Assembly (NCBI GenBank): GCA_021432635.1
Contig: MU270140.1
Coordinates: 1 to 64,000, forward strand
DNA: 64,000 nt
Direction of reading: 5' to 3'
Source of the DNA: Thozetella sp. PMI_491
Taxonomy: Eukaryota; Ascomycota; Sordariomycetes; Chaetosphaeriales; Chaetosphaeriaceae
In this document: positions 1 through 55,988 of the stretch, piece by piece
Layout: every line of letters begins with the position of its first letter
Position numbering within the stretch: the first letter of the stretch is position 1
Made by a program: the position numbers and the translations under genes
Notes under the pieces: generated by a model
The model's database searches: none
What the model saw: only the letters and a program-made list of their open reading frames with translations
What the model was told of the DNA's origin: nothing

Positions 1-1315
1 GTTCCCGTACGTCGGCAGCGAAGACATTGTAAGGAGTGGGGAAGATAGAGGAGCCGTCCATGACCTGGAGCAGCGTCGGGTTGGCCCAGTCAAGAACCAG
101 ACTGCTGGTGTTGATGGTCCACTGGAAGTAGGCGTTGGCAGTGGTGAAGCTGACCAGCTCATCTGTGACCTGCTCGATGTTGCCGACGTTGAGAGGCAGG
201 TAAGGGACCAGGCTGGCGTAAGGCTCGTCCGCGCAGCTGTTGGCATCGGTGACGCTGCTGGTGCTCGTAGGCTCATCAGTGCTGGTGCTGTCGTAGCGCA
301 CGATGCCCGTGATGTTGGCTGCGTTGCCGTTGCCGGCGCAGTTGGTGTTCCAACCTCCACGTAGCCAGTAGTCTCCGGGAGTAGCGTTGGCCTCGACAAT
401 GACGTCGTAGCGCTGGCCGATGCTGACGAGGACGTTGTCAGTGGTGTAGGGCACCAGAGGGACAAGGTCGTTGCCAATGACGGTCAGAGTGTGGCCGTCG
501 ATGCTGAACTGGAAGTGACCGTCGATGGCGTTGTTAATAAGGCGCAGGAGGTACTTCTTGCCGCTCTCGAAGACGGTCTCGAACTTGGCACCTCCACCAT
601 TGTACGTGTTGGTACCGTTAATCAGACCGTTTTGTAGCGTGGGCGGGGCACCGGTCCGGGCCTTGGTAGCCCATCCCTCGAAAGCAGTCGAGTGGCCCCA
701 GTCAGAGAGGAACAAGACACCAAGATCCTCGTCGTAGTTGGCGGTGGCAGGGCCGTTGAGGATCATCCCGCCGTACAGACCATCGCCATACTGCAGGGTG
801 AAGTGGCTGTGGTACCAGGTGCTTCCGTACTGCTCGACCTTGAACTGATAGGTCATGGAGGTACCGGGAGCGATGGGGCATTGGGTGACACCTGGCACTC
901 CGTCGAACTCAGTGCTGTTGGACTGGCGGATACCGTGCCAGTGGATGCTGGTACCGTTCGTGATCATGTTGTTGGTCACATGGATCACCAGGTTGTCGCC
1001 CCAGTCAGCGATGATGGTTGGACCGGGGACAGTGCCGTTGAAGGTCATGCATGGCCTGGAGACGCCATCAGGAGCGCAGTCGGCCTCCTCGACCGAGAGC
1101 CAGTACTCCCTGGTGACACCGGTGTCGGGAACCTCTTCATACCAGTTGGTATCGATCGAGTAGTCGCCCCAGCAGTCCCGAGACGTCGCCGTGTTGTCAC
1201 AAGACGCGCGGGGCTTGACAGGGCGGGCGTCACGCTGAACGGCGCGGTCCATGGGGATGGACAGGGCGGAAGCACCCGCCGCGAGGGCAAGGAGCTGAGT
1301 GAGTGTGGTCTTCAT
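1..1315 (-). CDS. Laccase (secreted multicopper oxidase), 5' part; 3' end beyond window
   Basis: Reading the minus strand from the ATG at 1315-1313 gives an open frame to the window edge (about 438 residues, no stop, no intron needed). It begins with a secretion signal (MKTTLTQLLALAAGASA) followed by a short basic propeptide. Two copper-ligand motifs of multicopper oxidases are visible: HWHG with His125/His127 and WYHSH with His169/His171. The intervening TNGTSIHWHGIRQ and SDWGH-type stretches and the second cupredoxin domain (NDLVPLVPYTTDNVLVSIGQRYDV) match ascomycete laccases. The C-terminal third cupredoxin domain with the type 1 copper site should lie left of position 1. Laccases are extracellular and oxidise phenols with reduction of O2 to water. 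A TATA-like element lies about 105 nt upstream. The exact substrate cannot be told from this part. Confidence 0.93.
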   Translation of the reverse strand, partial: MKTTLTQLLALAAGASALSIPMDRAVQRDARPVKPRASCDNTATSRDCWGDYSIDTNWYEEVPDTGVTREYWLSVEEADCAPDGVSRPCMTFNGTVPGPTIIADWGDNLVIHVTNNMITNGTSIHWHGIRQSNSTEFDGVPGVTQCPIAPGTSMTYQFKVEQYGSTWYHSHFTLQYGDGLYGGMILNGPATANYDEDLGVLFLSDWGHSTAFEGWATKARTGAPPTLQNGLINGTNTYNGGGAKFETVFESGKKYLLRLINNAIDGHFQFSIDGHTLTVIGNDLVPLVPYTTDNVLVSIGQRYDVIVEANATPGDYWLRGGWNTNCAGNGNAANITGIVRYDSTSTDEPTSTSSVTDANSCADEPYASLVPYLPLNVGNIEQVTDELVSFTTANAYFQWTINTSSLVLDWANPTLLQVMDGSSIFPTPYNVFAADVRE

Positions 1316-4300
1316 GGTGAAGTGTTAAAGAGAGTAAGAGAAGAACCGCCTTTGGGTTGTCTCGGGATGCTGTTGAGAGGGGTGAGGAACAACACCAGAA
1401 GCATGGACATGACGGCCATATTTATATCATGATCAAACAACAGAGATCTCCAACTCTTGTCCAGGTATCCATGCTGTACACAGCCCGAACTGGCTCGACG
1501 TCTGTCCGAAAAGAGAACTCGATGCCCGGACTGTTCGGCCCCCTGAGTGCCTCCCCCTCAACACCACACTCGTGATGCACCATGTGGCACCGCATAGCGC
1601 TATCGACTTGCGACGCGTCACCCAGTACCATGTCGAGCGGCATCCTTAGCGCCATGCTCTCATAGCTCGGCTTCGCGGCCATGCACGAGCAGGCCTCATA
1701 GCGCTTGTCGCTATATTGTAAGGGGGTGAAGACGACGTATACGGAGAGGGTGTAATGTCCGTGCTGCCCATGCTGCGGCTGTCCCCGTGGCCTGTAAAGT
1801 GATATCTCACCGTAAGCCCCGGGCGGCGAGGTAGCAATAGTCCGGACAACCTAGTTGGACGGCCTTGATAGTGGATCTATAACACCTTTTCAAACAGCGG
1901 TCGGGCCAGGCACGATGGAGACGAGGGGTCCAGATGGGGTTGACGGTCCACGCTGCCCTCACATACATCAGGTGCGCGATGGTACTGTGCCGTATGGACA
2001 GCACAGCTACTGCCCCAGTATGCCAAGCTTTGTTATTTGAGATAAGGACAGGGTCTTGTGGATCAAGAAGCAAACACGAGCAAGACAAGCTTCACCAGGA
2101 GCAAGGAAGAGGCCGGATGTTAGGTTGCGGCGCCCGAAGTGGAATCCCGTCTTGGAGAGTGAGCCGCAGAGCTAAAATCAACGATACTACCCAGCTGCTA
2201 AACACTGTGAAAGTCTCTACCGAGCCTTACTAGCATCAAGAAGACCCTTGACCAGGGCTTGTGCTTCGCTGACGACGACGATCCCTTCCTGGCTAGGACT
2301 TCACAATGCCGCGGGGGGGGGGCCGTGTGCCTTGTTAGGGATCCAATAGTTTGGCGGGCGCTTTCCTATGCTTACCATGGTACGTCTCCCTACTTCGTAG
2401 GCCCTAGGCCAGGAACCCCTCGCAATCTAGAAGGGCGCTAGCCCCCGTCCCCCTCCATCGGCCGCCCGAGCTTAGACTTAAACGGGTTTTGGACTTAAAC
2501 GGCTCTTAATGGCTCTTGAGGTGGGGGGTGGAGGAGGCGGTTACGCTACTGCCGACTAGGAAGCGGCCTTGGCTTCGATTGGTGTATCGATCCCGGGGGG
2601 GTGCCAACGGAGCCGCCGCGGGTGGCATCGCATCGCATGGCCCGCTAGGATCCCCGGAGGCGAGAGCGAGCGGCCGGGGACCTTTTGCAGCCAGCATGCA
2701 AGCCTCGCGCCGCACCCGGCCCAGAGTCGCTGGTTGTTGTCGGCGAGCCAGCCGACGGTGGCGACGACCAATCCTACGTTTGCTTCCCTTCTAGTCTATC
2801 TTGATATCTTGAACCGGAGTGCTAGCACATGGCCGGCAGCTACCAAGCCGGCGCAATGGGTATACAATTGGTAATGGAACCGAGAGCACAGGTGCCGAGC
2901 GAATCACCAGGCTCAGCAACCCGCCTTTGGAGCATGCAAGATACTGCATGCACGACGGTCCAATACTCGTATCAGAGTTCAGCATCTGACCCCCCGCTCG
3001 CCCTCTACGTCCCGAGATGCCCGGACGGCCGCATCTATACCCCGATGACAGAGCGCGGGTGTGCAGAAGAGAAATGAGAGAAGAGGCGGAGTATGTAGTA
3101 AGTTTCAGGCCAGACGGAGACGCACGAGGCCCGCCGTCCGTGTGCGTGTACGTGATATTCGCCGGGGGGGATGCTATGCAGTCGTAGACGTGCGCGAGAG
3201 GCCTCTCTGTCGATGACCCTCTCGTGAGCACGAGCTCGAAGCCTTCTACGGAGGTTGGCCAAATGCCGCGCCCCTGCTCGGATCCTAGACGCTTAGCCCA
3301 ATGACTAGCAGCTTATTTCCGTGTTCGCAAAGACCCCCATGCAAGGTTCGCGGGATGCCATCGAAAGCGTGTAAAAAAATTCCCCGATGGTCAGGGGTGT
3401 CCAGTCTTGACGCGTCAGCTTGGTTTGCCAAGACATCGTTTGTAGGTTCCCCCCACTGGAACTTTAGGATGGAACTCCAGTTCTCCAAGCGCTCGAGCAT
3501 AGCGGATAAGATTGCCCAGTCGTATCAACTCTGTATACGAGTTTTTGTCTGTCAAGACGACGAAAAAGCTCCTGATTTTCAGTACGACATCCGAAATAGG
3601 TAACAGCAGGGTAACAGCCGAGCGTGGTGGTGAAAGATACTCCAGCGCGTGGCGGCACGGCGCGGGCGGCAGTTGTGCGGGCGTGGTTCGGATTACCGAG
3701 CAAGCCTACCTACCTACATACATGGCACTACCACGCTGCAAAACACAGGGGTATTCGACCCCTGCCCAAAAAAAAAAACCATAGCGGAGAAGGGTGGGCC
3801 AGAAACATGCACAATGACAGTCTGTATATTGCTACCGCTATCCACATGGATGCCGTCTCCGGGATAGGCTAACTGGTTTGGCCAGCCTCCGTTTCCCCTT
3901 TTCTTGGCTTTTTCGCCATGAGACGGCACGAGATACCTTATGCTTATCGACTGGCCATCGGGAGCCGAGATTGGGGCATGAGCCAAATCCTGTTACTCTG
4001 TGACGCATACGCAATCCCTAATTCCACAGCAACAAATTATTGCTCCTTTGTTGTTATTCCCGCCCCTTTTGTGCGTAAGCTGCAGCCTACTAGAGCCCAT
4101 TGCGCGGCAACCACCTGAAAGCAGCGCTTAATCCGTTGTGACCGAGATTCTATCTCTTGCTCTGCTCGGTACGCTTCTACCCAACGAGGACGGGGAAGAG
4201 TGTGCACGAGGCACGGAATACCCTATGGTCAGCCCCAGGGCAAATCCCCTCTCCGCCCCCCCTCCCCCTTTCGCCCCCGGTACCCGGCCGCTCTCCGCAC

Positions 4301-6863
4301 AAGACCAAACCACTGAAGTGGGTGTATCGCTGTCTTTCGTTACCGACTCCGGCCAAAGTCCCGCCTCGATCCATGCAAGGTACGCGCGGTGGCCCGAGAT
4401 TAAGGTAGACATCCGAACAGAAACAGCCAACGTGCTGCAGCAGTTCGTGAGCGCACTTCACCTCTGTCCCCGAACTCCGGATAACATGGGAAACGGGACT
4501 GCCCGCGCCCCGAAAACCCGAGTCTGCGAGAATTCCCACATCTGTCCTCGCACATCGCACTCGCTTCTGGCCGGCCCATAGCTTGGCATCTTGTTCGTCA
4601 ATAGCATTACGGCCCTAACCCAGGTACGTAGGGTACTCTGCCAGGTTCTTCGGTCTTACGCTTAGCTGCGAGGGTGGCGGACATGGGGCTGGGCTGCAGC
4701 GTTGCCCAGTTTAGAAGACTCTAAATTCAATATCTGATGCACCTGGCCCCTGCATATCCAAAATCAGAAGCCCCAACCGCGGAACAGATGGAGCCTCGTC
4801 AAGATCGATGGTGTTGCCTCTAGTGCATCGGATTGTGGGCGTGACAGCCCGAAACTAGGCGAGGCTCCTGAGCACCAGTCACTGGCTCGTCATATATTGG
4901 GCAGTGGGTGTTGCATATGCTGAACGGAAACCGCAAAAGGCGTCGTAGACGAGCCTCACAGACTAGTGGTTTCATGCAGCTTACCGCATCACCTGTGCGT
5001 GTGCTGCAGACGAGCCGTCCCAATCATCAACACCTGATACCGTCCCGGCGCCTCGCAAAACTTACTGAAGATTAAAGGATTGTGCCACCGGAGCTCCCTG
5101 CGATGGAAAAGTCATTCATGTCCCCGCCAGTCGTGCCCGGGTCGTCGGCTATTTTGTGACGCCCGACTCCGAGGGAGGCCTTGGTACTTCGTAATCTTTC
5201 CTTGGTCATCAAAGTTTTCCAAGGAGCATTGGACAAGATGCAGTAAGCGCATCCGATTTCAAGCCCCATGTATTTGCCTCGGAAGTATCGGAGATTCGGG
5301 CTTTCGTAACCTACCAACATGTGTAGCCAAGACATCCGTTCTGTAATCAATCGTAGGGGTCTCGAGGGGTGGAAGAGAAGGCTAGTTACGAACGAGTGCA
5401 TAACGCAAAGTTACGGCTTGCCAAGCTTGGTTAAGCTTTTTGGTCTCCCCAGGTCCGCAACGCCTCTCTCTTGGGATTGAAGGGTTTAGTACTTGGCAAT
5501 CCATTGGACGTGAGGAAATTCATGGTGGAAAATGGGACTGAGGGATGAATCCAAGGGACGGATATCCAGAAAGGCGGCAGAAGTTAAATCAACTTAAGCT
5601 TTCGTTATTCTATGCGGATCTACTGCTAACCTATAATATCAGCCGCAACAGCGACCAGGCTGGCGCAGATCCGGGAAAATCAATGCGTCGATCAAATATG
5701 AAATGCGGCGCCGGATTGGACGCAGTCACAGTTGTGCGGGAAGCAATATTAATGGGTGGGCTTGGGGAGGAGAATAGGGCCTTTTTTCTCTTCGGAATAG
5801 AACTGCGGCTCAGCCCATGGCGAATCAACAGCTTAAGACGGCATGATTCACTCTCTACAGTTTCAGGACAGCATTTGGGGGCCGCATTCGTTTGTCTCAT
5901 CCTAACCTTAAGCTTCACATTTGCCATTCCGCTCTGAAGTTGTCGTGACGAATGCCATCTTAAGTACACCTACTCCACACATTATTACATGGGATCGAAG
6001 CCTGGAAACACTAACCATGGGTTGTACGGCTCGGTGATGCATAGGCCCAGGACTCCATGGATGGTTTCGTTGGGTAGAGTCCGGGGGACTGAAGAAGTTG
6101 CCAATTTTTTTTTTCTCTTCTTCCTCTTCCTCCCTTATACTCGTGCATGCATCGGCCAAATTTGGAAAGGGACGGATAGTGGGGGCGGACCACTATTCAC
6201 CAAAGGCCGGCTGCATGCGACGGTACCCGGTACCTGGCTCTTTTGGGCGCTATAGAATAAGGCACCTATCAGCCCCACCATCACTGGCAACTGGATGACC
6301 AAGAAATGGAGCATGGGGCAGCAACCATTAAATCCTTATCGCTAGTTACCAAATTAATCTTTTCCTTTACACCAATACCTCTTTCTCTCCTCAGAGCAAT
6401 CCCCCCCCTTCCGCCCTCTTGTTTTTTTCTCCTTCCTTTCCGAAAGACGTTGAAACGCGTCATAGATAAACAAACTCCGCAAGAAATGTTACAGTATTCT
6501 CGAATAGTCCAGCATGTGTATTGTAAAGTCGTATCTCTCTGTACCTAGATAACCAGGTTTATGCTAGGTCATCGTGGCCACGATCGCATAAGTTTTAACA
6601 AATTTATGAGGTCTCCTCTGTAGCTGATGAAGTAAGGCTCTATTACATATTGTTAGCTGACCGCCTTGAGGGATTATTTCTACATATTTTCAAGCATCTT
6701 GTACATGTTCTCGTCCTGAACCTCTGCGGGGCTTTATGGGTCAACTTCTCTTATATCTAGCGATTTGCTCCGCGACGTCTAGGGCACACGCGAGCTTCCT
6801 AGCCTTTGGGAGAAAGAGTTTTAGTCGTCTTCTTCCTTCCTGAAATTATACCCGTGCATTACG
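1316..6863. other. Long stretch without a supportable gene (5.5 kb)
   Basis: The first ~110 nt hold the laccase promoter. The remainder contains only short open frames in all six frames, none with a recognisable domain or a convincing exon series. There are homopolymer runs (a G run near 2311-2320, an A run near 3771-3778, T runs near 6104-6112), short TACCTACC-type repeats near 3710 and pyrimidine-rich tracts near 6110-6140 and 6390-6440. I see no transposon ends or obvious RIP signature (GC content is mixed, not strongly AT-rich). Confidence 0.5.
1419..1426 (-). promoter_or_regulatory. TATA-like element of the laccase gene
   Basis: On the minus strand this reads TATAAATA, about 105 nt before the laccase ATG at 1315, a usual distance for a fungal TATA box. 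Confidence 0.5.
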
Positions 6864-7907
6864 CTATGAGAGTATGATGTTCACTTCGGGAACCAGATGG
6901 ATATCGAATCTACCGTAGACATCACCTTGAATCTCCTGGGCGAGACTTAATATATCTGATCCGTTACTTCCATAGTTCACCAAGACCAGAGCGTGCTTCT
7001 GATAGACCGCGGCAGCTCCCCTTCTCTTCCCTTTCCAGCCACACTCTTCGATCAGGCGCGCGGCAGAAATTGACACCATGTTGCCAACCGCGTGAGAAGC
7101 AGCCAGAAGACAAGGGTGCTCTGTGACCAGCTTATGGAACGTCGTGTTGGCGACTAATGGATTCTTGAAGAAGCTCCCTGCGTTTCCAACCATCGCGGGG
7201 TCGGGCAGTTTGCTCCTGCGGATGCTGCACACAGCCTCGCTGACGGAGCGTATTGTAGGTTCAAGTCCCCTGGCGTTAAGAGTTTGACGTATCGCAGGAT
7301 AGCTGTCGTTCGGTTGGTAATGATGTGCCTTTTTCAAGCGCATTGTCACGGCGGTGATGAACGGCTTCTCGGCATCCTGAAGAGTCGAGAATATACTCTG
7401 TCGGTGGGCGAATTTGCACTCCTTGTTTGTGTATATGTGCTTTATCCCCGTTGGGAGATCAATGGCCTCTAGCTCTTGAATGATGTCGCTGACCTGAGCT
7501 CCATATGCGCCGACATTCTGGACCGGGGTCGCACCAACAGTGCCTGGGATAAGTGCCAAATTTTCCACTCCACCTAAGTCGTGGTCAATGCAGTACGTCG
7601 TAACGTCCTTCCAGGGGACACCGCTGCCGATCCTCAGAATAACATTCACGGCATCCTCCGTCACGACCTGCATGCCGAGAACTTCATTCTTGAGGATGAT
7701 GCCATTGAAGAAGGGCTCTGCGAAAAGCACGTTGCTACCCCCGCCTAGGATCAACCGTTTTTGGCCATCTAGGAGGCCACATTTGACTAGCATGTGAAGA
7801 TCGTCTTCGCTCTGTATTCGTACGAGTGCTTTAGCTATGGAGCTAACAGAGAAGGTATTGTAGGGGCGTAATTCGACGCTCCACTCTATGTGGAGGGTGC
7901 TTGGCAT
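6864..7907 (-). CDS. murB: MurB: UDP-N-acetylenolpyruvoylglucosamine reductase (bacterial type I) in a fungal genome
   Basis: Single-exon 347-residue protein from the ATG at 7907 (an in-frame TTG 12 nt upstream is not a likely fungal start). MurB is an FAD enzyme that uses NADPH to reduce the enolpyruvyl ether of UDP-GlcNAc, giving UDP-N-acetylmuramic acid; in bacteria this is the second committed step to peptidoglycan. Visible signatures: NTF near residue 17, FAD-binding LGGGSNVLF (54-62), ENLALIPGTVGATPVQNVGAYG region (115-136), Arg169 in CKFAHRQSIF, catalytic Ser245 in GNAGSFFKNP, and the final catalytic Glu341 in LVPEVNII. The length and lack of the loop deletion fit type I (E. coli-like, 342 aa). 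The residue before Arg169 is His rather than the usual Tyr. It is transcribed divergently from murA 690 bp away. No Shine-Dalgarno sequence precedes the ATG. Origin by horizontal transfer is inferred. Confidence 0.93.
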   Translation of the reverse strand: MPSTLHIEWSVELRPYNTFSVSSIAKALVRIQSEDDLHMLVKCGLLDGQKRLILGGGSNVLFAEPFFNGIILKNEVLGMQVVTEDAVNVILRIGSGVPWKDVTTYCIDHDLGGVENLALIPGTVGATPVQNVGAYGAQVSDIIQELEAIDLPTGIKHIYTNKECKFAHRQSIFSTLQDAEKPFITAVTMRLKKAHHYQPNDSYPAIRQTLNARGLEPTIRSVSEAVCSIRRSKLPDPAMVGNAGSFFKNPLVANTTFHKLVTEHPCLLAASHAVGNMVSISAARLIEECGWKGKRRGAAAVYQKHALVLVNYGSNGSDILSLAQEIQGDVYGRFDIHLVPEVNIILS

Positions 7908-8597
7908 GGCGAGTGTCAATGAAAGCTGAGGTTACAGAATACGCACATATTCGATAGAGAGCTTGGGGAATTAGAAGGATAGGGCGATAAAGAAAGAGAC
8001 ATAGACCTCATAATGCGAAACCTAGGCAATGGCCGGACGGCAATTCTCGGCCACACTACATGGCTTAGCTTCCCTTTAGACGAGGCATGGCGCAGATTCT
8101 CAGACATCGTATTCGCTGGTGGTGCTTTGGCCACCACTGAAACCCAATATCAATAGAACATGTTCCACCACCTGTCTGTTAGAACAGCCAGTCGTGCGCT
8201 ACATGATTTTGTACACTAGGTAAGGTGGTACAGGTTCTGTCTTTGTGTGTCAGTTGAATAGCTAAGGAGCGGCAAGTATTGGCTACACTTCGGCTTCGCG
8301 AGCTCGGTTGCACATTGAGCTGTTGTCTTGGAATAGACTTTGCGTGGGAAACCTAACCGGGATGCTAGAGCACGCAAAAGACACGTTGCGTCGCGACACA
8401 GCTGTCACAAAAAGCAACATCATACACTGTCAAATTAGGCGTCGCAGCTATGCCAAGAAGTCCTTTCGTCTACCACCTCGCCTTTATTCTATCTAGTAAA
8501 TATGTTTAAATGCTTTTCTACGTTCCGATGAACTCTGGGTTATTCCCAACCCTCATGCTTGGCCGCGCTAGTTTTCGGCTTAGACACGCCTTCAAAC
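7908..8597. promoter_or_regulatory. Divergent intergenic (shared promoter) region of murB and murA
   Basis: About 690 bp separate the two start codons. It holds a CCAAT pentamer on the plus strand at 8144-8148 and one on the minus strand at 8278-8282, and AT-rich sequence near 8490-8515 before murA. No purine-rich ribosome binding site precedes either ATG, as expected for nuclear eukaryotic expression. Both genes could be co-regulated from here, which is inference from the layout. Confidence 0.5.
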
Positions 8598-9977
8598 ATG
8601 TCGACACTGTCACTTGCCCGGTGCTCCCAGATCCAACCCCCCCTAGAAAGCACGCCGCACTCGTCCCTGAAGGAGAAAGAGGCTGTAGACGCGAATGAGG
8701 GTGCGGCTTCAGCTCCGGCTTTGCTAATCGAGGGTGGCCGAATCTTGACCGGCCATGTTCGCGTCTCCGGCTCCAAGAACGCTTCACTTCCTATTATGGT
8801 AGCATCGTTGCTCGGGGAAGGTCAAAGTGTGCTCACCAACGTCCCCGAATTGTCCGACACCCGCACGCTATGCGCGATCCTCCAATCACTCGGCGCAGCA
8901 GCCTCCTTGGACCGGGGGATGTTTTGCTGCGAGCCTGGCTCGGGGGTGCTACAGGAGCCTCCTGGATGTCTAACGAACAAGATACGGGCCTCCATTCTCC
9001 TACTAGGACCTCTAGTTGCTAGGCATGGCTATGCGAGGCTCCCTCTGCCTGGCGGTTGTGCGATTGGCCCTCGGCCTATCAGCCTGCACCTTGAAGGCCT
9101 GAAGGCACTTGGAGCAGAGATCCATTTTGAAGGAGGAGATGTGCATGCCAAGGCGCCCCGGGGTTTGCACGGCGCCCAGGTTATGCTCGACGTGCCCAGT
9201 GTTGGTGCAACACAGACCATCATGATGGCGGCTTCCCGAGCGACGGGCATCACCGAACTTCACAATGCAGCCAAGGAACCAGAAGTGGTAGAACTTGCTA
9301 GAGTGCTTGCCTCGATGGGCACAGAAATCTCTGGGGCAGGAACTCATACAATCGTGATTCGAGGGCGCCGTAGCCTGCGACCATACCGACACCGCGTGGA
9401 GCCCGACCGGATAGAGTGCGGCTCCTGGATGATTGCGGGTGCCTTGGCAGGCGGCCCGCTGCTCATCGACGGGTTCATTCCCGAGCATCACGCTAGCCTG
9501 CTCGCCGTGCTTCGCGCAGTCGGGGTACACTTCGACCGGCTCAGCAATCATGCCGTGCAAGTATACCGGTGCCAGCATCCCAAGGCAGCGAACGTGGAAA
9601 CGGGGCCATTCCCTGCGTTCCCAACCGATCTGCAGGCTCCGCTTGGAGCGCTGCTGGCCGTGTCAGAGGGCACGTCGGTTGTGACCGAAACACTGTACGA
9701 CAATCGCTTCCTCCATGTAGCGGAGCTGGTCCGTCTCGGGGCCTCCATCCGCGTTAGCTGCGGTCGCGCAACGATCGATGGGGTCCAAGGGCTATCCGGC
9801 TCGGTCGTGCAGGCCACCGATCTGCGGGCTGCAGCGTGTCTTGTGATTGCCGGTCTGGTTGCAGAGGGAGAGACGTTGGTGCAACACATCCACCACCTGG
9901 ATCGCGGGTACGAGGCCATGGAGCAGAAGCTCGGTGCCATCGGCGGTTCGGTACATCGAATGCCGTCGAGCGGATAG
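8598..9977 (+). CDS. murA: MurA: UDP-N-acetylglucosamine 1-carboxyvinyltransferase in a fungal genome
   Basis: Intronless 459-residue protein. The first in-frame ATG is at 8598 with A at -3; the frame is open from 8559 but only via a TTG codon. MurA transfers enolpyruvate from PEP to the 3'-OH of UDP-GlcNAc. All key residues are present with a constant offset of +39 from E. coli numbering: Lys60-Asn61 (SGSKNA), Arg130, the catalytic Cys154 and Arg159 (PGGCAIGPRP), Asp344 (FPTDLQA), Arg370 (DNRFLHV), Asp408 (ATDLRA), Arg436 (DRGYE). The offset reflects a ~40-residue Ser/Glu/Ala-rich N-terminal extension with no clear targeting signal. This rules out fungal EPSP synthase, which is part of the large AROM protein. 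Paired head to head with murB, it should supply MurB's substrate. GH27 follows 850 bp downstream. Confidence 0.95.
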   Translation: MSTLSLARCSQIQPPLESTPHSSLKEKEAVDANEGAASAPALLIEGGRILTGHVRVSGSKNASLPIMVASLLGEGQSVLTNVPELSDTRTLCAILQSLGAAASLDRGMFCCEPGSGVLQEPPGCLTNKIRASILLLGPLVARHGYARLPLPGGCAIGPRPISLHLEGLKALGAEIHFEGGDVHAKAPRGLHGAQVMLDVPSVGATQTIMMAASRATGITELHNAAKEPEVVELARVLASMGTEISGAGTHTIVIRGRRSLRPYRHRVEPDRIECGSWMIAGALAGGPLLIDGFIPEHHASLLAVLRAVGVHFDRLSNHAVQVYRCQHPKAANVETGPFPAFPTDLQAPLGALLAVSEGTSVVTETLYDNRFLHVAELVRLGASIRVSCGRATIDGVQGLSGSVVQATDLRAAACLVIAGLVAEGETLVQHIHHLDRGYEAMEQKLGAIGGSVHRMPSSG

Positions 9978-10824: not shown

Positions 10825-12427
10825 ATGCGACAGAGCATACTTTTCTTCCTTTTGCAGGCCGCGCGCGAGGCGAGGGCGGCGGCGGCGGCGGACGCGGTGG
10901 GCAGGCTCCCCGCCCTCGGCTGGAACTCGTGGAACGCCTTCAACATCGACATCGACGAGAAAAAGGTCATCACGGCCGCCAAAAAGATTGTCGAGCTGGG
11001 TCTCAAGGTATTCCATGCGCCACGGGCTGTCCGGGGGCTAGACCGAGCTAACCGGCGGGCTCGCATAGGATGCCGGATACATCTATGTGAACATTGACGA
11101 CGGGTGGTCCGTCAAGGAGGGACGGCACAAGAAGACCGGCCGTCTCGTGCCGGACCCCAAGAAGTTTCCCAGCGGCATCAATGGCACCACGGCCAAGGTC
11201 CATGCCTTGGGGCTCAAGTTTGGCATCTACAGCTCCGCGGGGACACACACCTGCGCCGGCTGGCCTGCCAGCTTGGAGCACGAGGAGATCGATGCCGAGA
11301 CGTGGGCAGAATGGGGCGTTGACTGTGAGTGGCTTTGCGCCATAGCGTCGGCCGCATGATTGCTGACGGGCTTCTCAGATCTGAAATACGACAACTGCAA
11401 CGTCCCCTACCACTGGCTCGACGAGTGCGACGCCTGCAGCCCGGATAGCGATGGCGGACCCGGGCCGTATCCTAACGGCACCTGCAAGGGACTGTATGTG
11501 ATCGTGAAAGGCTGCGACTATGTTTCCGTGCGTGCGTGGCTGACTGCTCACAACCCATAGCGACGGCAATTGGTGCGAGGAGGACTACGACTACACCGAG
11601 AGCCGCACGGCCGAGCGGTTCAGGAGGATGCGCGACGCATTGCTGGCCCAAGATCGGCCCATCCTGTACTCTCTCTGCGAATGGGGCTTCCAGAAGGTAG
11701 AGACATGGGCCACCGACGTGGGCCAGTCCTGGCGAAGCAGCGGCGACATCTTCGGTAAGAAACAAACCCCAGGGCGCATCCCGCACAGGGGAGAGAAGAT
11801 GGTGCTAATCATGGACCCGCAGAGAACTGGCCTCGCGTGATGGAGCTCCTGAACCGCAACTCGTTCAAGCTCAACTATGTCGACTTTTACTCGCGCAGCG
11901 ACCCCGACATGCTGGAGGTCGGCAGCAAGCATCTCAACCTGTACGAGACGCGCAGCCACTTCGCGCTGTGGGCTGCCATGAAGGGCCCGCTGCTCATCGG
12001 CACCGACCTCGCCGTCATCAAGCCCGAGCACCTGGCCATCCTCAAGAACGAGGTGCTGCTGGCCTTCAACCAGGACCCCAAGATCGGCAAGCCGGCGATG
12101 CCGTACAAGTGGGGCACGAACCCAGACTGGACGTGGAACGCCTCGTTCCCGGCTGAGTACTGGTCGGGCGCCTTCAGCAACCCCAAGAGCGGCGCGGTCG
12201 ACACGCTCGTGCTGGTGCTCAACAACTACCCGAAGAACGGGACCCGCGACGTGGTCTGGGCCGAGATCCCGCAGCTCAGCTCCGCGAAGGGGGCCACGTA
12301 CGAGGTGACGGATGTCTGGACCGGCAAGTCTCTCGGCTGCTTCAAGGACCACATCTCGGTTTCCATCGAGAGCCACGACACGGCCGTCTTGGTCATCGCC
12401 GACCAGTGCGAGCCCAAGGATCTGTAG
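10825..12427 (+). CDS. Alpha-galactosidase, glycoside hydrolase family 27
   Basis: Five exons: 10825-11007, 11069-11324, 11379-11493, 11561-11754, 11823-12427; product 450 residues. All introns are GT...AG, 54-68 nt, with CTAAC/CTGAC/CTAAT-type branch sites, and all phases join. GH27 signatures in order: [10 protein letters not shown] (31-40), [24 protein letters not shown], nucleophile Asp151 in LKYDNC, acid/base Asp247 in SSGDIF, then SDPDMLEVG and the GPLLIGTDL segment, and a C-terminal beta domain ending with DTAVLVI. The enzyme removes terminal alpha-galactose from oligosaccharides and galactomannan. The N-terminus is hydrophobic but then Arg/Ala-rich, so the signal peptide is only a moderate match; secretion is likely but not certain. 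The exonic GC is high compared with murB nearby. Confidence 0.93.
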
Positions 12428-18963: not shown

Positions 18964-21900
18964 CTAGTGATGAATCACCACGCGTCGTAGGAATTGAACC
19001 TCTACAGGGCCGACGAGCCCATACCCCGCATACGGCACGTCCGTGTAGTGCTCACTATCCCAGGGCACCTCCCCGTTGGTATGCAGGCTACCAATGCGTG
19101 CCTTGACCGCGTTAAACAACGTGCTCGATACCTCGACTCGTACTTCGTTGCGACCCGCCGTTACCAGATCTGAGATGTCGGCGACGGCATTTGAAGTGTC
19201 CAACGGCGGTACGGGGCGTTCGTTGACCCACGCCCGGATCGTGTTGCTCACCCTTCCGAGGCTCAATAAGACAGCATAGGATGATTGCGACGGCGCCGCT
19301 GCCAAGGGGATCGAGATGTGGGCGACGTAAGTGCCTACCCCACTGACGTTTTGCATACCTTCGATCTGCACCCACGGCACCAGAGTTGGGAGATGTTGGG
19401 TGGGGAGTGTTACGATCTGGCCTTTGGCATCCGATAAATCCTCGAGCGGCACATACGACTCGATTGTCAGGTCCCAAGGGCCTACCGTAATGTCTTCGAG
19501 CTCCTTCTTCTCCAGAAACGTCACACGGGACCCATTGCTCAGGTGTACAGTCGCGGCGACACCGTCGCTGTAGACCAGCGCCTCGACTTGCCCGGCGGAA
19601 TTATACTGGACCGTTTCTATATTAGACGAGTAGGACACGACACGAGTAGTGGCTACGCTAGCCGTTCTGGTAAAGGCGAAGATTTTGGTCTGGCCGTTCC
19701 TGAGGCTGACGTCGATGGTGATGCCGCTATCGTCTGCGTCGTACGCCGCCAGCGGCGATTGCTTCCCAGTCCACGCATCTAGTATCCACGGCGTAGAACC
19801 GATGGGAGGCGTGAAGCGGACAGTAAAGACCGAGTCGAACCCGTTGTTCCACATATACGCCGTGTCGACGCCGGAAGCCTTGTCAGAGCGCCAGGCGATA
19901 AACATGCTCTCAGGCCCGCCTCCGGCGAATGACAGTACCGCTGCGCGAGGAGTCACGTTGAATTGCGCGAGGATTCCGGGCCCAAAGTCTGACAAGGGAA
20001 TGGTATGAACAGAGGGATACGATGATAGCTCCTCCATGTTCTTTGTCACCTCTGCCTGGCCGGCGGCGCCAACCGTGACGCTGGGAGCAGATCCTACGAT
20101 GAAGATAGGCAGACCGCCCTGCGCAAAGCGGACCAGGGCGGACGAGGCTTCTGGGGTGATGTATGTCTGGTCATATACGACAAGCGCCTTGTAAGCTGGG
20201 CCATCAGGGGCCAGGAGTCCGTCTGAGACGATAGCCTCGGGCCAGGCGAGGTTTGCAAACCCCAAATATTCGTGAGAGTAGCCTATTGGACTTAGTCCAT
20301 TGTTCTCCTGGGCATAGCACCGCCTAGAATACGGAAAGGGGAGAGATTACATACCCGCAGAGGTCAGGTCTGGCCCAGGATAAAAGTCGATATCCTCGTA
20401 GTAGTGGACGTCGATGTAGAAAGCTAAGTCGACCTTGGGCACTCCGAGCTTTCCGACGAGTGAATTCCGCGCGGCGTAAAGCAACGAGTCGTTCAGGTGC
20501 CGCCACGCCGGCATGCGTGGGCCCCACATGTCGGTGAAGCGGTACTCAAACGTCGTGAGGCCGGGCCAGGTCGTTCCCGGGTAGTTGCCGCTATATGCGT
20601 AGCCGTGCAACACAAGCGTGTTGACCCCGACCGCGAAGGACCCCTTGAGCATGCGCAGCAGTTCTGGCACCGAAAACGCATAAGCGCCGATCGAAATTGC
20701 ACCAACCTCTGTTGAGATGACCTCGGAACCGGCGAGATGGGCCGCGCCCATGAACTGGCGGTACCTGTCAATGTTCTCGAAGAAGGCCAAGGACTCGAGC
20801 TCCGGTGCTCCCATGAAAGGCACAGCTGCAGCCTACGACCAGTAATGCGAGCAGGGCCCCAGCGTCAGCCTACAACGAACTGATACTCAGGGCTACGAGC
20901 GGGTGGGGCAACATGAGCTAATACGCACCATATCAAGAGGGAGGTTGTAGGCTGGTTGGGAAGAGTGGTTGAGCCCTAGTGATTGAGCCCACTGCTCTAG
21001 GTGTGTTAGGTATTCCTGGTATCCTTCGTTGAGGACTTCCCGGTAGTCCTGAGTGCATGTAGTAGTGTTGCCGTATTCGCCCGTGTCGTAGATATATGTC
21101 ACCTCATACGGCGTCAGATCATGCCAAGCGCACCAGATATGGTAGAGCACTGGCAGACACGGGGTGATGCTGTAGCCGCGCGATTTCTCAAAGCGTTCCG
21201 CGAATCCCTGAGTCCACCAGAGTGTTGCTATCATCTCCAAGCTGTCTTCCCAAGCTGCATATCTGGTCAGTGTGTGGTGCTCCATGAAGCATCGAAGGTC
21301 TACCGGGAGGGGAAGGATGACGCACAATACTCTCCGACCTCTCGGAGCAACCTTTTAACCTCCGCATCGTCCAGTAGATGCTGATCCCAAAAGTCGGTGA
21401 TCTTCTTCGCGCCAGTGGCACTGAAGTGGTCGACAAACCAGGAACCGTTACCAATGGTGGTGTTGGCTTCGGGCACCGAGATGGCGTTTTTTGCATTGGT
21501 ATATCTCTCATAGAAGGCGAAGAGCCTGTACTCGCCGCTCGCCGGTGGTGGAGTCCACTCCAAAGTGCCGTTTCGAACCAAGGATGTCAGATCGACGACA
21601 CTCGTCTGGTTAAGAACCACAATATTCTCATCGGGATCGAGCCCTTCTTTCCTGACTACCTCAGCAGCCACCACAGCAGCTAGGGAGTTTTTTTCGCCCC
21701 AGTCTTGTGGTAAATGCATCCAGCCCTCCAAGCCTTGGGTATTGAACGAGGCACTGGCCGTGGGCACTAACCCATTAAACGTCTCGCCTGCATTCACAAC
21801 GGTACTGCTGTAAACTAGTTGGTAGCCAAGGCCCGGAGTCTCGGGTTCGCTGGGCACACCCTGGCCCTGATTCGGCCCGAGGGCAAAGTCAAACAGCAAG

Positions 21901-22302
21901 CCGTCCGCAGCGCTGGCGTTGAGTGCAGCTCGGAGCACATCCTTGAACGCCTCGGTGCCGAATCCATAGATGGACCAGTCAGTCACGACAGGCCCATTGC
22001 CGTAATTGAAGAAGGGCAGGAACTCGACGCCGCCGCACCCGACGTCGGCGATAGCGTGTATGTCCTGCACTACCTCGTCGATCGGAACACTTGCGTCCGG
22101 CAGCCTATGAAGGTTAGCGGAATCTCCCGAGAACTAGAGTGTCCTCGGGGCGAAGGAACAAAGAACCGCGGACGCACCAGTATCGGAACTTAGGCCGGTA
22201 GTAGTTTGGCGGTGTATCGAAGTCGGCAATAGGGATTGTTGGAGCGCCGGATAAGAAACTGCCCAGGGGAAGCTGGCCCACCGGGATGAGATCTAGTACC
22301 AT
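18964..22302 (-). CDS. Alpha-L-rhamnosidase-like protein, glycoside hydrolase family 106
   Basis: Five exons on the minus strand: 22302-22178, 22104-21326, 21254-20929, 20832-20355, 20282-18964; introns 71-96 nt, all GT...AG with matching phases; 1008 residues. Order: PPNYYRPKFRYWLPDASVP near the N-terminus (split by intron 1), DIHAIADVGCGGVEFLPFFNYG, a long central region, EYSWEDSLEM, YNLPLDM...APELESLAF, SEVISTEVGA, GVNTLVLHGYAYSGNYPGTTWPG, then AGYSHEYLGFANLAWPEAI...LAPDGPAYKALVV and a C-terminal galactose-binding-like beta domain. These match the GH106 (PF17132-type) family, which releases L-rhamnose from pectic rhamnogalacturonan and glycosides. No clear signal peptide is present at the chosen ATG, the only in-frame ATG nearby, although several N-glycosylation sequons suggest secretion; a further 5' exon may exist. 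Confidence 0.82.
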
Positions 22303-31545: not shown

Positions 31546-32711
31546 CGGTCTTATCCCAGTTCTCTTAAAGCTCTAGCAAATGCCTACTTGCTCTGACATC
31601 GCTCCGTGCCTTACACCTCAAGTTGTTCGTAGGTTGATTAAACCATTCGTTGGCAGTCTTCCAAATTCATCAAATTTCAGTTACTAAAACCAAAGAAAAA
31701 CCACAGGAACCGATCAAAAAGATTTGTGCGCACCTTACTTAGGAAAGGGGGGAAAAAGAATGCGTCGGCCGGGAATCGAACCCGGGGCCCACGCAGATAT
31801 GCTTGCTATGGCAAGCGTGGATTTTACCACTAAACCACCGACGCTTGTTGAAGTGCCGGCTCCAATTGTTTCACTATGTAACTTTCTCGCCATTGGTGCC
31901 ACATACAGCAACTAGCCCCGCTTTTAGTCGTGCCAAGTAACGAAGTAAACCAATCAGGTCTGCCCATGTCGGCGGTAGGAGGGACTGCTGAGTCTTTGGC
32001 TGCTTTAACCAGGATTTTCACATACGCGAATAGTAGGCATAGAATCTTGTAGTTAATAAAGGCGGGTCAGATGAAAAGGGTATCATTGCTAGCATGCTAA
32101 CCTCTCTGGCATTAAATATCAGACAGAGGCCCTGGCATCTGACAGTTGACATGCAATGATCCTCCCCTTTGGCACCTGAAAACTGCTCAATTGCGATGGC
32201 TCTTCAAGCAACTTCGTCGTCTAGCCACCAGCTACTAGCAGATAAATGCGAATGTGCATTAGTCCAGATCAGCTTATTACATACAGGATCAACTCTAACA
32301 AAGTTCAACTCAATAGCAAACCATTAAAGAGATATGGAGGGCATGACGCCCGTAGTGCTAGCTGTCAGGGATTACTAGTGCCTCGACATTATTGAAAGAA
32401 GCCTGGTTTGCCTAAATAAGGTAGTTTCTGATTATAACCGTACCCATTGAATACCACTCTCGTTTCCCTAGACACACGGAGGCGATATGGCATGCGCCTT
32501 TCGAGGAAAACATATAAAGGAGATTATAGTACGCCAGAAGTCAGTACGTCTTGGGGCCGTTTATTCGGTACAGTTATTGTAGCGATATTTTAACGACGAC
32601 AGAACAACAGACGAAGGTGGTTTAGGCGCAAAACCATTGTATGCTTTTTTTTCTTTGAGACAGACTACCACCACGCTTTTGTGCGCGACATTTGCTTCTA
32701 TGGCATGCTAA
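31546..32711. other. Intergenic holding one tRNA-Gly gene
   Basis: Apart from the tRNA gene at 31761-31844 this stretch is AT-rich with no supportable coding region. T-rich sequence at 32644-32655 may serve 3' end formation of the convergent SDR gene. Confidence 0.4.
31761..31844 (-). tRNA. tRNA-Gly(GCC) with short intron, copy 1
   Basis: 84 nt on the minus strand. Acceptor stem GCGTCGG/CCGACGC with discriminator A, D arm with TTTAGTGGTAAAAT, T arm GGGTTCGATTCCC. The anticodon stem CACGC/GCGTG encloses TT-GCC-A followed by an extra 13 nt that start TAGCAAGC; these pair with GCTTGC of the anticodon arm, the usual pre-tRNA intron helix. Anticodon GCC reads GGC/GGT. A run of five T on the minus strand (31757-31753) follows as pol III terminator. 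Confidence 0.93.
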
Positions 32712-37176: not shown

Positions 37177-37260
37177 GCGTCGGTGGTTTAGTGGTAAAAT
37201 CCACGCTTGCCATAGCAAGCACTTCTGCGTGGGCCCCGGGTTCGATTCCCGGCCGACGCA
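37177..37260 (+). tRNA. tRNA-Gly(GCC) with short intron, copy 2
   Basis: 84 nt, same acceptor, D, anticodon and T arms as the copy at 31761-31844 and differing only inside the intron, which here ends CACTTC. Followed by six T at 37273-37278 (pol III terminator). Confidence 0.93.
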
Positions 37261-37887
37261 TCAGGACTTCAATTTTTTGTAGGTTTCTCTAATTTTTGCC
37301 ACCTATAATTCCTTGGGAACCTCGATCCAGCCTGAATGGTGTTAGCCCAGGTACCCAGGTGACCTGGTCAGTAAACCATACCCTCATTTTGCGCTTTTGG
37401 TAAATACCTACAGCTATCTTAGGCTTCTTAAAATGTGTGAAGGCTGCCGAGGAGACTGTGGGCACGGAGGTTGCTCCCAGAGACTTGCGACGTTTGGGCA
37501 AGCGTGAGACGGGTGATGCCTACTGTGCAACGAAAATTAGTTGACCATTGACATGCCATAGATAAAATTTTCTTCTCTAGAAGTAAAGTGCCAAGTCTAC
37601 ATATTTAGGACGCTCTAAGTGCTACATGGGATGCTTGAAGCTCGATCTAAAGCGACCCAGATGTTGTTCGTGAATATGGAGAGCGGAGAGGCTTCCTTAC
37701 AGAAAACTTGACCGCTGCTGTAAAGGATACTGGCAAGAGACCGGCACAATTTTGGGCGTGCTAAACCCCACTAACATCTGCCGAGGCCGGGTGCGAAGCT
37801 CCTCTTTTTCTGTAGCGGGTGATACAGATTCTCACTTTTTAGTTTCCGCATCCATAGACTCTAAATTGACCCCGCTCTTCAACAAAT

Positions 37888-37971
37888 GCGTCGGTGGTTT
37901 AGTGGTAAAATCCACGCTTGCCATAGCAAGCATTACTGCGTGGGCCCCGGGTTCGATTCCCGGCCGACGCA
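37888..37971 (+). tRNA. tRNA-Gly(GCC) with short intron, copy 3
   Basis: 84 nt, mature part identical to copies 1 and 2; intron ends CATTAC. T-run terminator at 37977-37981. It lies 627 bp from copy 2 in the same orientation. Confidence 0.93.
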
Positions 37972-39362
37972 TCTGCTTTTTCTTTTGCTTTTTTGCTGGA
38001 ATTTGTTACTCTTTTTGGATGTGTTGGAAAGGTATGCAGGTACTTGATTCTTTCTCCAGTGGCTCCCATTGAAAATACATTGGCAACGCTTCGTTAAATA
38101 GCCTTCCTTGTTCTTAAGAAATCCTACTGAAGAATACACTGATTGGACTGGCCTTTTTACCTAGGTTATAAAGTCATTATTGAACCACTGCAGTGAGGTA
38201 ATTGAGCTAGAAACAACGTATCGAAATCGTAGCTACGTGGCATTGTGGGACATATGGGACTTCCGACGAGGCTCAGGAAACTTCGTGCTTCGTATTTGGA
38301 GCTAATTGCTGAAAATATACAAGGCTCCAACACCTTTGAAGCTCGCAAAGGATATCCGTTCGGAGGTGTCCCCGATTCACTTTTCACGTCTGCATAACGT
38401 AGTCTGGCCAGAAGTCCTAAGTGAGGGGCATTACCTTATCTAACACCGTACGCACAAGTACCCAGGGCGACAAGCCGAGGACTCTAGAACAAAACGGAGA
38501 TTGTACAGTCTGCTCATTAAAACAAAAGGGTAAAGACGAGTTCAGCCTCTTCTTAATAATGCATTATTTGTCACCTATGTTCTTCCCCAGAGAGACAACA
38601 TGGACTATTCTGGGTTGCCCATGCCCTTCGGTAGTTGGCATAGGTGGAAATTAGGGTGATCAGGTCAGGGTTTATCGACCAACCGAACTCTTAGGTCCTC
38701 ACTAGAAAAATCAAAGTAGGTCTAGGATTGCTGCACGGAGACACATAGTAGCTTTACTTGCTAACTGGCTTGGACTATAGCGAAACAAAGAGGTGAGAGT
38801 GGATTCGTCTTTGCTGTTTGGTATAGTGGGCGTCTTTGTACGACACTATCACACTGGTGCGGCGTTGGAGGGGTAGACTGCAGTAGTAGCAAATAGCTCG
38901 GTGCCGACCTAAGTGCCGACGCCCAACTCTCACTTGTAGCAGGTAATGGACGCACCAATCATCTTGGCGGATGCACCGAGCAGACTAGAGAAGTACTAGG
39001 TTACTAGATCCCCGCCACATCAGGACGATCTACTGCAAGGGATGCATTGTTGCACCATGGGACACTCGATCCTCAATAGCCGTCCTCAACTGCCGCGTTC
39101 CGCTCGGCCGCCGCAGCAAGCAAAAACTAGGCCACTGCACTACGTGATTCGTGGCTGCACTGCTGTTTCGGCTGGCAAGGGCCTATGAGTTGCTAGTTTC
39201 ACTGGTGTCCGGACACTGACTCAGTTGCTTCGAGTCTCATGCGCCCGAGAGGTTGCGCTATTAAGACCGTTGGGTTTTGAAGGGCGCACGGTGGGTAAGC
39301 GCGATATCAGCTCCTCTTCTGATCTCATCGAACTTGCGTGCAGAATCACACATCTGTTGAAC

Positions 39363-47992: not shown

Positions 47993-48076
47993 TGCGTCGG
48001 CCGGGAATCGAACCCGGGGCCCACGCAGATATGCTTGCCATGGCAAGCGTGGATTTTACCACTAAACCACCGACGC
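47993..48076 (-). tRNA. tRNA-Gly(GCC) with short intron, copy 4
   Basis: 84 nt on the minus strand, mature part the same as the other copies; the intron begins TGGCAAGC instead of TAGCAAGC and ends CATATC like copy 1. Five T on the minus strand at 47983-47979 as terminator. Its 5' flank resembles that of copy 1 (GCCGG... and TTCACT... blocks in the same order). Confidence 0.92.
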
Positions 48077-55237: not shown

Positions 55238-55988
55238 AGCTGTTATACGCGCCACAAGATCAAGTCGCGAGGGGTAGGGAACTGGGCGTGTTCGTGAAGC
55301 AGTTGGGGAGCACTAGCGGTGGGGACCAATGCTTTATATACCTTTGTCCTCTGGCCCAAAAAAGGGGGACGTCTTCCGGTGTGGCGGCGCGAGGGACAAG
55401 GGCACACAGATGGCACCTCGGCTCGATGCATGCGAGGACCGAAGGAGGCAAGCTGCACACTGGACCGAAAGTCTCGGTAACCTCCAGCCCGAATGATGGC
55501 TAGGTAGACTTGCGAGTCTCAAGAGGTGGCATGGTTTCCATGCCCCAGGTCTTCGGGCTTCCCACTCGCGCACTTTTCTGGTCTCCCCGAACTGGTCCAC
55601 TTTCACCCCATCTACCTACCCCATCCCCCCCTTCATCTCCATGCAGGGCACTAGTTGCTAAAATGATGCCAGGCGATAATCACACCCCTCCCCCACCCAA
55701 ACCCCAACGGGTGGAGGCCATGATGCGGCAAGTGGGGTTTGGGGCAGTCTGGCGCCATGGCGAAGCTCGCTTCTGCTCCCTGCAGCACGACTGCCACGCT
55801 CGTGTGGATTGCTCCATCTAGCGGACTATGTTGACCCGAGGAGGAGGAACGAGCGCAAGAGGTCGGGAAGCAGACTCGCCGTCTTTGACTCGCGCATCTA
55901 GAGTTCGTGGTTGATAAGCGAAGCTGCAAGTTTGCCAGGAGCACCCTCGGCGCCAGTAACAACAGCAGAAGCAGCAACAGCAGCTACG
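55238..55988. promoter_or_regulatory. Divergent promoter region of the MFS transporter and GH78 genes
   Basis: 751 bp between start codons. For the transporter a TATA box at 55332-55340 and an ATTGG/CCAAT pentamer at 55326-55330 region are seen. Several G-/C-rich stretches (CCCCC at 55624-55630, 55687-55705) occur toward the GH78 side. A common Zn2Cys6 regulator could act here, which is inference. Confidence 0.45.
55332..55340 (-). promoter_or_regulatory. TATA box of the MFS transporter gene
   Basis: Minus-strand TATATAAAG, 95 nt before the ATG at 55237. Confidence 0.55.

Follow-up and report, generated by a model that had tools for sequence, protein, structure and literature searches.

A divergent pair of putative MurA and MurB genes in the fungus Thozetella sp. 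PMI_491 and its possible role in muramic acid synthesis

What would a fungus do with two enzymes of bacterial cell wall synthesis? The question is raised by contig MU270140.1 of the ascomycete Thozetella sp. PMI_491 (assembly GCA_021432635.1, 72.3 Mb in 157 contigs), of which we analyzed the first 64,000 bases out of 82,147 bp, hereafter the window. Close to its beginning, a MurB-like and a MurA-like gene lie head to head. The chemistry of both families is established: UDP-N-acetylglucosamine (UDP-GlcNAc) reacts with phosphoenolpyruvate (PEP), and the product is reduced with NADPH and flavin adenine dinucleotide (FAD) to UDP-N-acetylmuramic acid (UDP-MurNAc). We think it probable that the fungus carries an anciently acquired bacterial MurA/MurB pair, making UDP-MurNAc from the chitin precursor UDP-GlcNAc.

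Gene pair and family membership

The initial annotation described two full-length, intronless, divergent genes 690 bp apart, and both the frames and the gap were confirmed (Table 1). The MurA frame stays open 5' of its first ATG as far as a TTG at 8559. The head-to-head layout suggests joint control of murA and murB from the shared stretch between the two start codons, in which both promoters would sit.

Table 1. Coordinates of the gene pair and of its fungal flanks in the window
Feature	Position	Strand	Description
MurB-like gene, UDP-N-acetylenolpyruvoylglucosamine reductase	6864..7907	-	347 aa, intronless frame, start codon ATG at 7907, stop at 6864
Intergenic stretch between divergent start codons	7908..8597	.	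690 bp
MurA-like gene	8598..9977	+	459 aa counted from first ATG, intronless, stop ends at 9977
Laccase-type multicopper oxidase, fungal flank	2..1324	-	Truncated by contig start; scores 602 bits against 3v9e, whose entry is named laccase
Glycoside hydrolase family 27 (GH27) alpha-galactosidase in pieces, fungal flank	11087..12424	+	Melibiase pieces 11087-11359 and 11759-12424, in different frames

Both proteins belong to the expected families. Pfam recognized FAD_binding_4 (PF01565) and MurB_C (PF02873) in MurB and a single family, EPSP_synthase, in MurA. Against the NCBIfam equivalogs, MurB reached 210.7 bits for TIGR00179 (cut-off, 144.5) and 346.8 bits for NF000755 (cut-off, 277), and MurA 481.4 bits for TIGR01072 (cut-off, 392.7). 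Among solved structures searched by sequence, the nearest to MurB was 4jay from Pseudomonas aeruginosa, and for the other protein it was MurA entries, with 3sg1 (Bacillus anthracis) and 3r38 (Listeria) in the lead. We take the fungal MurB to be of the Pseudomonas and E. coli kind, which has a Tyr-bearing loop.

AlphaFold2 models were built from an alignment of 25 sequences for MurB, which drew on 24 of the 105 bacterial rows, and one of 20 sequences for MurA, which drew on 19 of the 49. Their mean predicted local distance difference test (pLDDT) values were 90.3 for MurB and 86.9 for MurA. Foldseek ranked 4jay at the top for the MurB model, with a template modeling (TM) score of 0.92. The MurA model has the two-domain enolpyruvyl transferase fold, and MurA entries ranked first, at a TM score of ca. 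0.88 of query length; by target length, the score was 0.92 to 0.97 for most MurA among the 50 entries listed, the lowest being 0.89. Residues 1 to 37 of MurA had pLDDT of <50 and contain 3 Lys/Arg against 5 Asp/Glu, and a complete enolpyruvyl transferase follows them. Therefore, we do not claim an import signal.

Conserved residues and past selection

To follow conservation column by column, the fungal proteins were aligned with the 105 bacterial MurB and with 48 of the 49 bacterial MurA, one having been dropped for a low score. The catalytic positions proposed earlier, Ser245 and Glu341 of MurB and Cys154 of MurA, stood up in these alignments. Each of the 105 bacterial MurB rows shares S245, E341, R169, Y203, K233, and N249 with the fungal protein; we take R169, S245, and E341 to be catalytic and presume further roles for Y203, K233, and N249. 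The key Lys, Arg, and Asp residues of MurA, said in the initial annotation to be kept, are indeed the same in 48/48 bacterial rows and in the fungal protein (K60, R130, R159, D344, R370, and R410), as is N61. At position 154, which has Cys in 42 bacterial rows and Asp in 6, the fungal MurA has Cys. Presumably this Cys (or Asp) is the catalytic loop residue and the other seven are substrate residues.

The fungal proteins kept 35 of 38 invariant columns in MurB and 56 of 60 in MurA, and 14/19 and 8/8, respectively, of those conserved at ≥97% but not fully invariant. Variable columns, in which the commonest residue is below 60%, were kept much less often (58/178 in MurB and 48/186 in MurA). The changes at invariant columns of MurA were A59S, L94I, A450G, and I452V. 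We infer that both proteins were constrained in the past, because unconstrained drift to 50% identity would strike invariant and other columns alike. Judged by these columns, the constraint on the fungal pair appears looser than in bacteria.

Age of the transfer

A bacterial contaminant or a chimeric contig could also account for two proteins whose families are both bacterial. Identity of 100% to one bacterial genome formed part of a refuting condition set beforehand, and no sampled bacterium exceeded ca. 50%. The top bacterial identity for MurB was 47% in the tree set, 48% for one row, and 46% for the best segment in a contig scan (best 80 of 583 confirmed relatives). For MurA, it was 47 to 49% over most of the protein among the matches listed, and a further search gave 50.3% over 71% of its length. 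In genome samples around Caldimonas and Hymenobacter, MurA was matched in 287 of 299 and 147 of 148 genomes; MurB was matched in 141 of the 150 genomes around Caldimonas, 31 of them with an E value of <1e-40 among the matches listed. Because the sampled bacteria reach at most ca. 50% identity, we read the pair as an old gene transfer rather than contamination.

Other evidence pointed the same way. The pair had been placed in fungal DNA, and this holds: a multicopper oxidase lies on one side and a GH27 gene in pieces on the other, all on a single 82-kb contig. A bacterial 16S model had 0 matches in the assembly, a weak test whose control was positive in only 9 of 14, and none of the other wall genes sought was found, with 0 matches to the Mur ligase N-domain and to the transpeptidase (see below). 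Contamination was thus set aside as extremely improbable.

Codon usage was compared under a model built from eight open frames of the window, read from stop to stop and serving as rough stand-ins for genes. The per-codon scores were -1.24 for MurB and -1.271 for MurA, and the eight frames, each left out in turn, scored -0.97 to -1.20. Under Hymenobacter murB, the values fell to -1.558 and -1.541, so that both genes were nearer to the eight window frames.

Search for the donor

The MurB tree held 57 of the 105 bacterial rows, a biased set drawn from the best 80 of 583 relatives. It placed the fungal MurB among Bacteroidota, on a starred branch (98/96) in a tree whose bootstrap had yet to settle, and a placement with the nine other rows was not rejected (approximately unbiased [AU] test, p 0.463). 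In the first MurA tree, the fungal protein stood apart from six Bacteroidia MurA (98/94*; AU p 0.034) that come from genomes holding close MurB relatives. A starred set in the same tree (99/95*) joined the fungal MurA with thirteen bacterial rows: ten others of the phylum to which Hymenobacter belongs, one from Ignavibacteriae, and two of the Caldimonas phylum. This placement speaks against a clear two-donor story. A second MurA tree included 31 of the 49 bacterial rows and 7 plasmid rows. Once MurA rows from Bacillota (four), Actinomycetota (one), and Pseudomonadota (two) had been added, no starred set held the fungal MurA.

Two further observations bear on the donors. Of the six Bacteroidia MurA rows, the five checked all have Asp at the position of the catalytic Cys, where the fungal MurA has Cys; MurA with Asp in place of this Cys is the fosfomycin-insensitive kind. 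Within 80 bacterial MurB loci of 10.1 kb on average (best 80 of 583 relatives), no MurA match was found at an E value of <1e-20. It is possible that the two genes were acquired separately from different donors and joined in the fungus.

Rest of the peptidoglycan pathway

The assembly was searched for gene families in six frames, exon by exon, so that a much-split gene could escape. MurB_C had a single match (control, 10/14). EPSP_synthase had two, the MurA and an AroA within a 1,591-aa open frame, which presumably is the fungal AROM protein. There were 0 matches in the assembly to the Mur_ligase N-domain PF01225 or to the penicillin-binding protein transpeptidase PF00905 (control, 10/14 for both), and a complete peptidoglycan pathway is accordingly unsupported. 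The only match in the assembly to Mur_ligase_M (PF08245) was FolC, and no MurC-F ligase was found. The MurQ etherase search gave one weak match in the assembly, which scored 24.8 bits where the cut-off is 302; since it falls within GlmS, catabolism of N-acetylmuramic acid via MurQ was rejected.

The claim that only the first two steps were taken up fits this search of four families, to which MraY and MurG did not belong. As far as tested, the module would end at UDP-MurNAc, with no etherase to reverse it among the families sought. Peptidoglycan is an unlikely end product because MurC-F were not found.

Finding the first two steps alone, with a peptidoglycan precursor as product, would also suit a fungus that feeds UDP-MurNAc to an endohyphal bacterium lacking MurA and MurB, and some insects do carry host-encoded Mur genes. 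Yet the assembly contained no bacterial 16S (by the weak test above), no export route is known, and nothing ties this fungus to such a symbiont. We regard this arrangement as very unlikely.

Proposed function and its weighing

If the pair is what its families indicate, the fungus would have taken murA and murB from bacteria long ago and would keep both as a divergent pair. Chitin synthesis would supply UDP-GlcNAc. MurA, in the cytosol, would move enolpyruvate from PEP onto the 3'-OH of UDP-GlcNAc, and MurB, using NADPH and FAD, would reduce the enolpyruvyl product to UDP-MurNAc. This proposal supposes that the genes are expressed, that the enzymes are catalytically active, and that these are their substrates.

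Several observations weigh against synthesis of UDP-MurNAc by this pair. We know of no consumer of UDP-MurNAc in such a setting. Three columns that are invariant in 105 bacterial rows are changed in the fungal MurB (Y168H, which adjoins R169; K279S; and W284R), as are 5 of the 19 columns conserved at ≥97% but not fully invariant; its function may thus have shifted or relaxed. In both proteins, the share of invariant columns kept is lower than in any of the 105 bacterial MurB or 48 MurA rows. Codon bias is also weaker, with GC content at third codon positions of 0.60 and 0.63 against 0.68 to 0.81 in the eight window frames. Under murB of other Bacteroidota (Cytophaga/Chitinophaga type), MurB scored -1.268 per codon, nearly equal to its value under the window frames, and MurA -1.376. 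Given the near-equal MurB scores and the weaker bias, codon usage is therefore weak evidence. As a side observation, H168, S279, and R284 of MurB might mark altered cofactor or substrate handling.

Some of these features, namely, the reduced share of invariant columns and the lower codon bias, together with the long branches in the trees, would be expected of a decaying relic, selected formerly and little used now. Against this stand the intact frames, the core catalytic residues, and the confident predicted folds, and we consider a relic quite improbable.

Recruitment to a related reaction deserves somewhat more attention. The pair could serve the synthesis of a specialized metabolite by adding an ether, enolpyruvyl or lactyl, to some other nucleotide or sugar, in the manner of NikO, the enolpyruvyl transferase of nikkomycin synthesis. 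NikO acts outside wall synthesis and shares the MurA fold (TM score, 0.82), MurB has lost invariant residues, and the two genes stand alone, the later genes sought not having been found. However, NikO is only 28% identical in the fold alignment and scored 126.6 bits where the best MurA reached 374.6, the fungal MurA is far over the MurA equivalog cut-off, and its substrate residues are kept. No natural-product core family appeared in the 20 window frames scanned, five of which were matchless and which do not cover every gene. This recruitment is, in our judgment, unlikely.

Returning to UDP-MurNAc as the probable product, the pair may provide a muramic-acid building block for a purpose other than a bacterial wall. 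As its destination, a modified fungal glycan or a soluble metabolite of small size seems likelier to us than peptidoglycan. Tentatively, and with more doubt than confidence, we propose a stand-alone two-gene UDP-MurNAc module, possibly from different donors, that would feed a muramic-acid-bearing fungal glycan or metabolite without peptidoglycan or plastids.

Comparison with known systems

Bacterial MurA (TIGR01072) and the fungal protein share the full-length fold, Cys154, the substrate Lys, Asn, Arg, and Asp residues, and the equivalog score. The fungal MurA differs in lying on a fungal contig, in ca. 37 extra low-confidence N-terminal residues, in an identity of at most ca. 50%, and in four changed invariant columns. 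The fungal MurB resembles bacterial MurB (TIGR00179/NF000755), being nearest to the Bacteroidota and Pseudomonas-type enzymes, in its FAD domain, MurB C-domain, catalytic Arg, Ser, and Glu, and Tyr-bearing loop. Three lost invariant residues, the fungal setting, and the absence of MurC-F among the genes found set it apart.

In the literature searched, the closest eukaryotic case appears to be the peptidoglycan pathway of the moss chloroplast, for which PMC9434261 describes the detection of UDP-MurNAc-based precursors up to UDP-MurNAc pentapeptide. The moss is thus a eukaryote with such precursors, as the fungus would be; the moss reaches the pentapeptide in its chloroplast, whereas only MurA and MurB were found in the fungus. 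Elsewhere, a D-Ala-D-Ala ligase and a carboxylate-amine ligase appear in the tables of PMC5005798, and PMC4320630 contained none of the terms looked for in it. Among the papers listed from the open-license literature searched, the coverage of which is partial, none dealt with a fungal MurA or MurB; other fungi may well have such genes in their automatic annotations.

Many regard muramic acid as a marker of bacteria, and if the proposed synthesis is true, assays that rely on it to count bacteria in soil and tissue would be affected. Some fungi would gain a target for fosfomycin, an inhibitor of MurA that acts on the Cys kind, to which the fungal MurA belongs. Flux of the chitin precursor would be diverted into a bacterial sugar nucleotide, and a eukaryote would use muramic acid without peptidoglycan or plastids.

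Genomic setting of the pair

The two Melibiase pieces of the GH27 gene lie in separate frames, a pattern that fits introns, and its first exon may start at 10825, where the frame has no family match. Farther along the window we found a GMC oxidoreductase and a GH5-type cellulase, and below the cut-off a Glyco_transf_34 and a fungal transcription-factor domain. In the ca. 5.5-kb gap between the laccase and MurB (1325-6863), no gene was recognized, and no family search of this stretch was made. GC content is lower towards the pair, at 0.50 for 5 to 6 kb and 0.46 for 6 to 7 kb; the stretch may consist of decayed repeats. The 64-kb window contained 0 matches to the telomere repeat.

Two alpha-L-rhamnosidase-like genes of different families are located on the same contig. 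The one at 21303-22133 has a GH106 match under the Pfam cut-off, and the one at 55902-58906 a Bac_rhamnosid match spread over two overlapping frames. Four tRNA-like genes cluster within ca. 16 kb, at 31761-31844 (-), 37177-37260 (+), 37887-37973 (+), and 47993-48076 (-). They are near-identical, with 95 to 98% identity over 85 to 92 nt in five of the six pairs; the remaining pair shows 89% over 115 nt. ARAGORN assigns all four a four-base "gcca" anticodon; by eye, they resemble tRNA-Gly(GCC) with a short intron.

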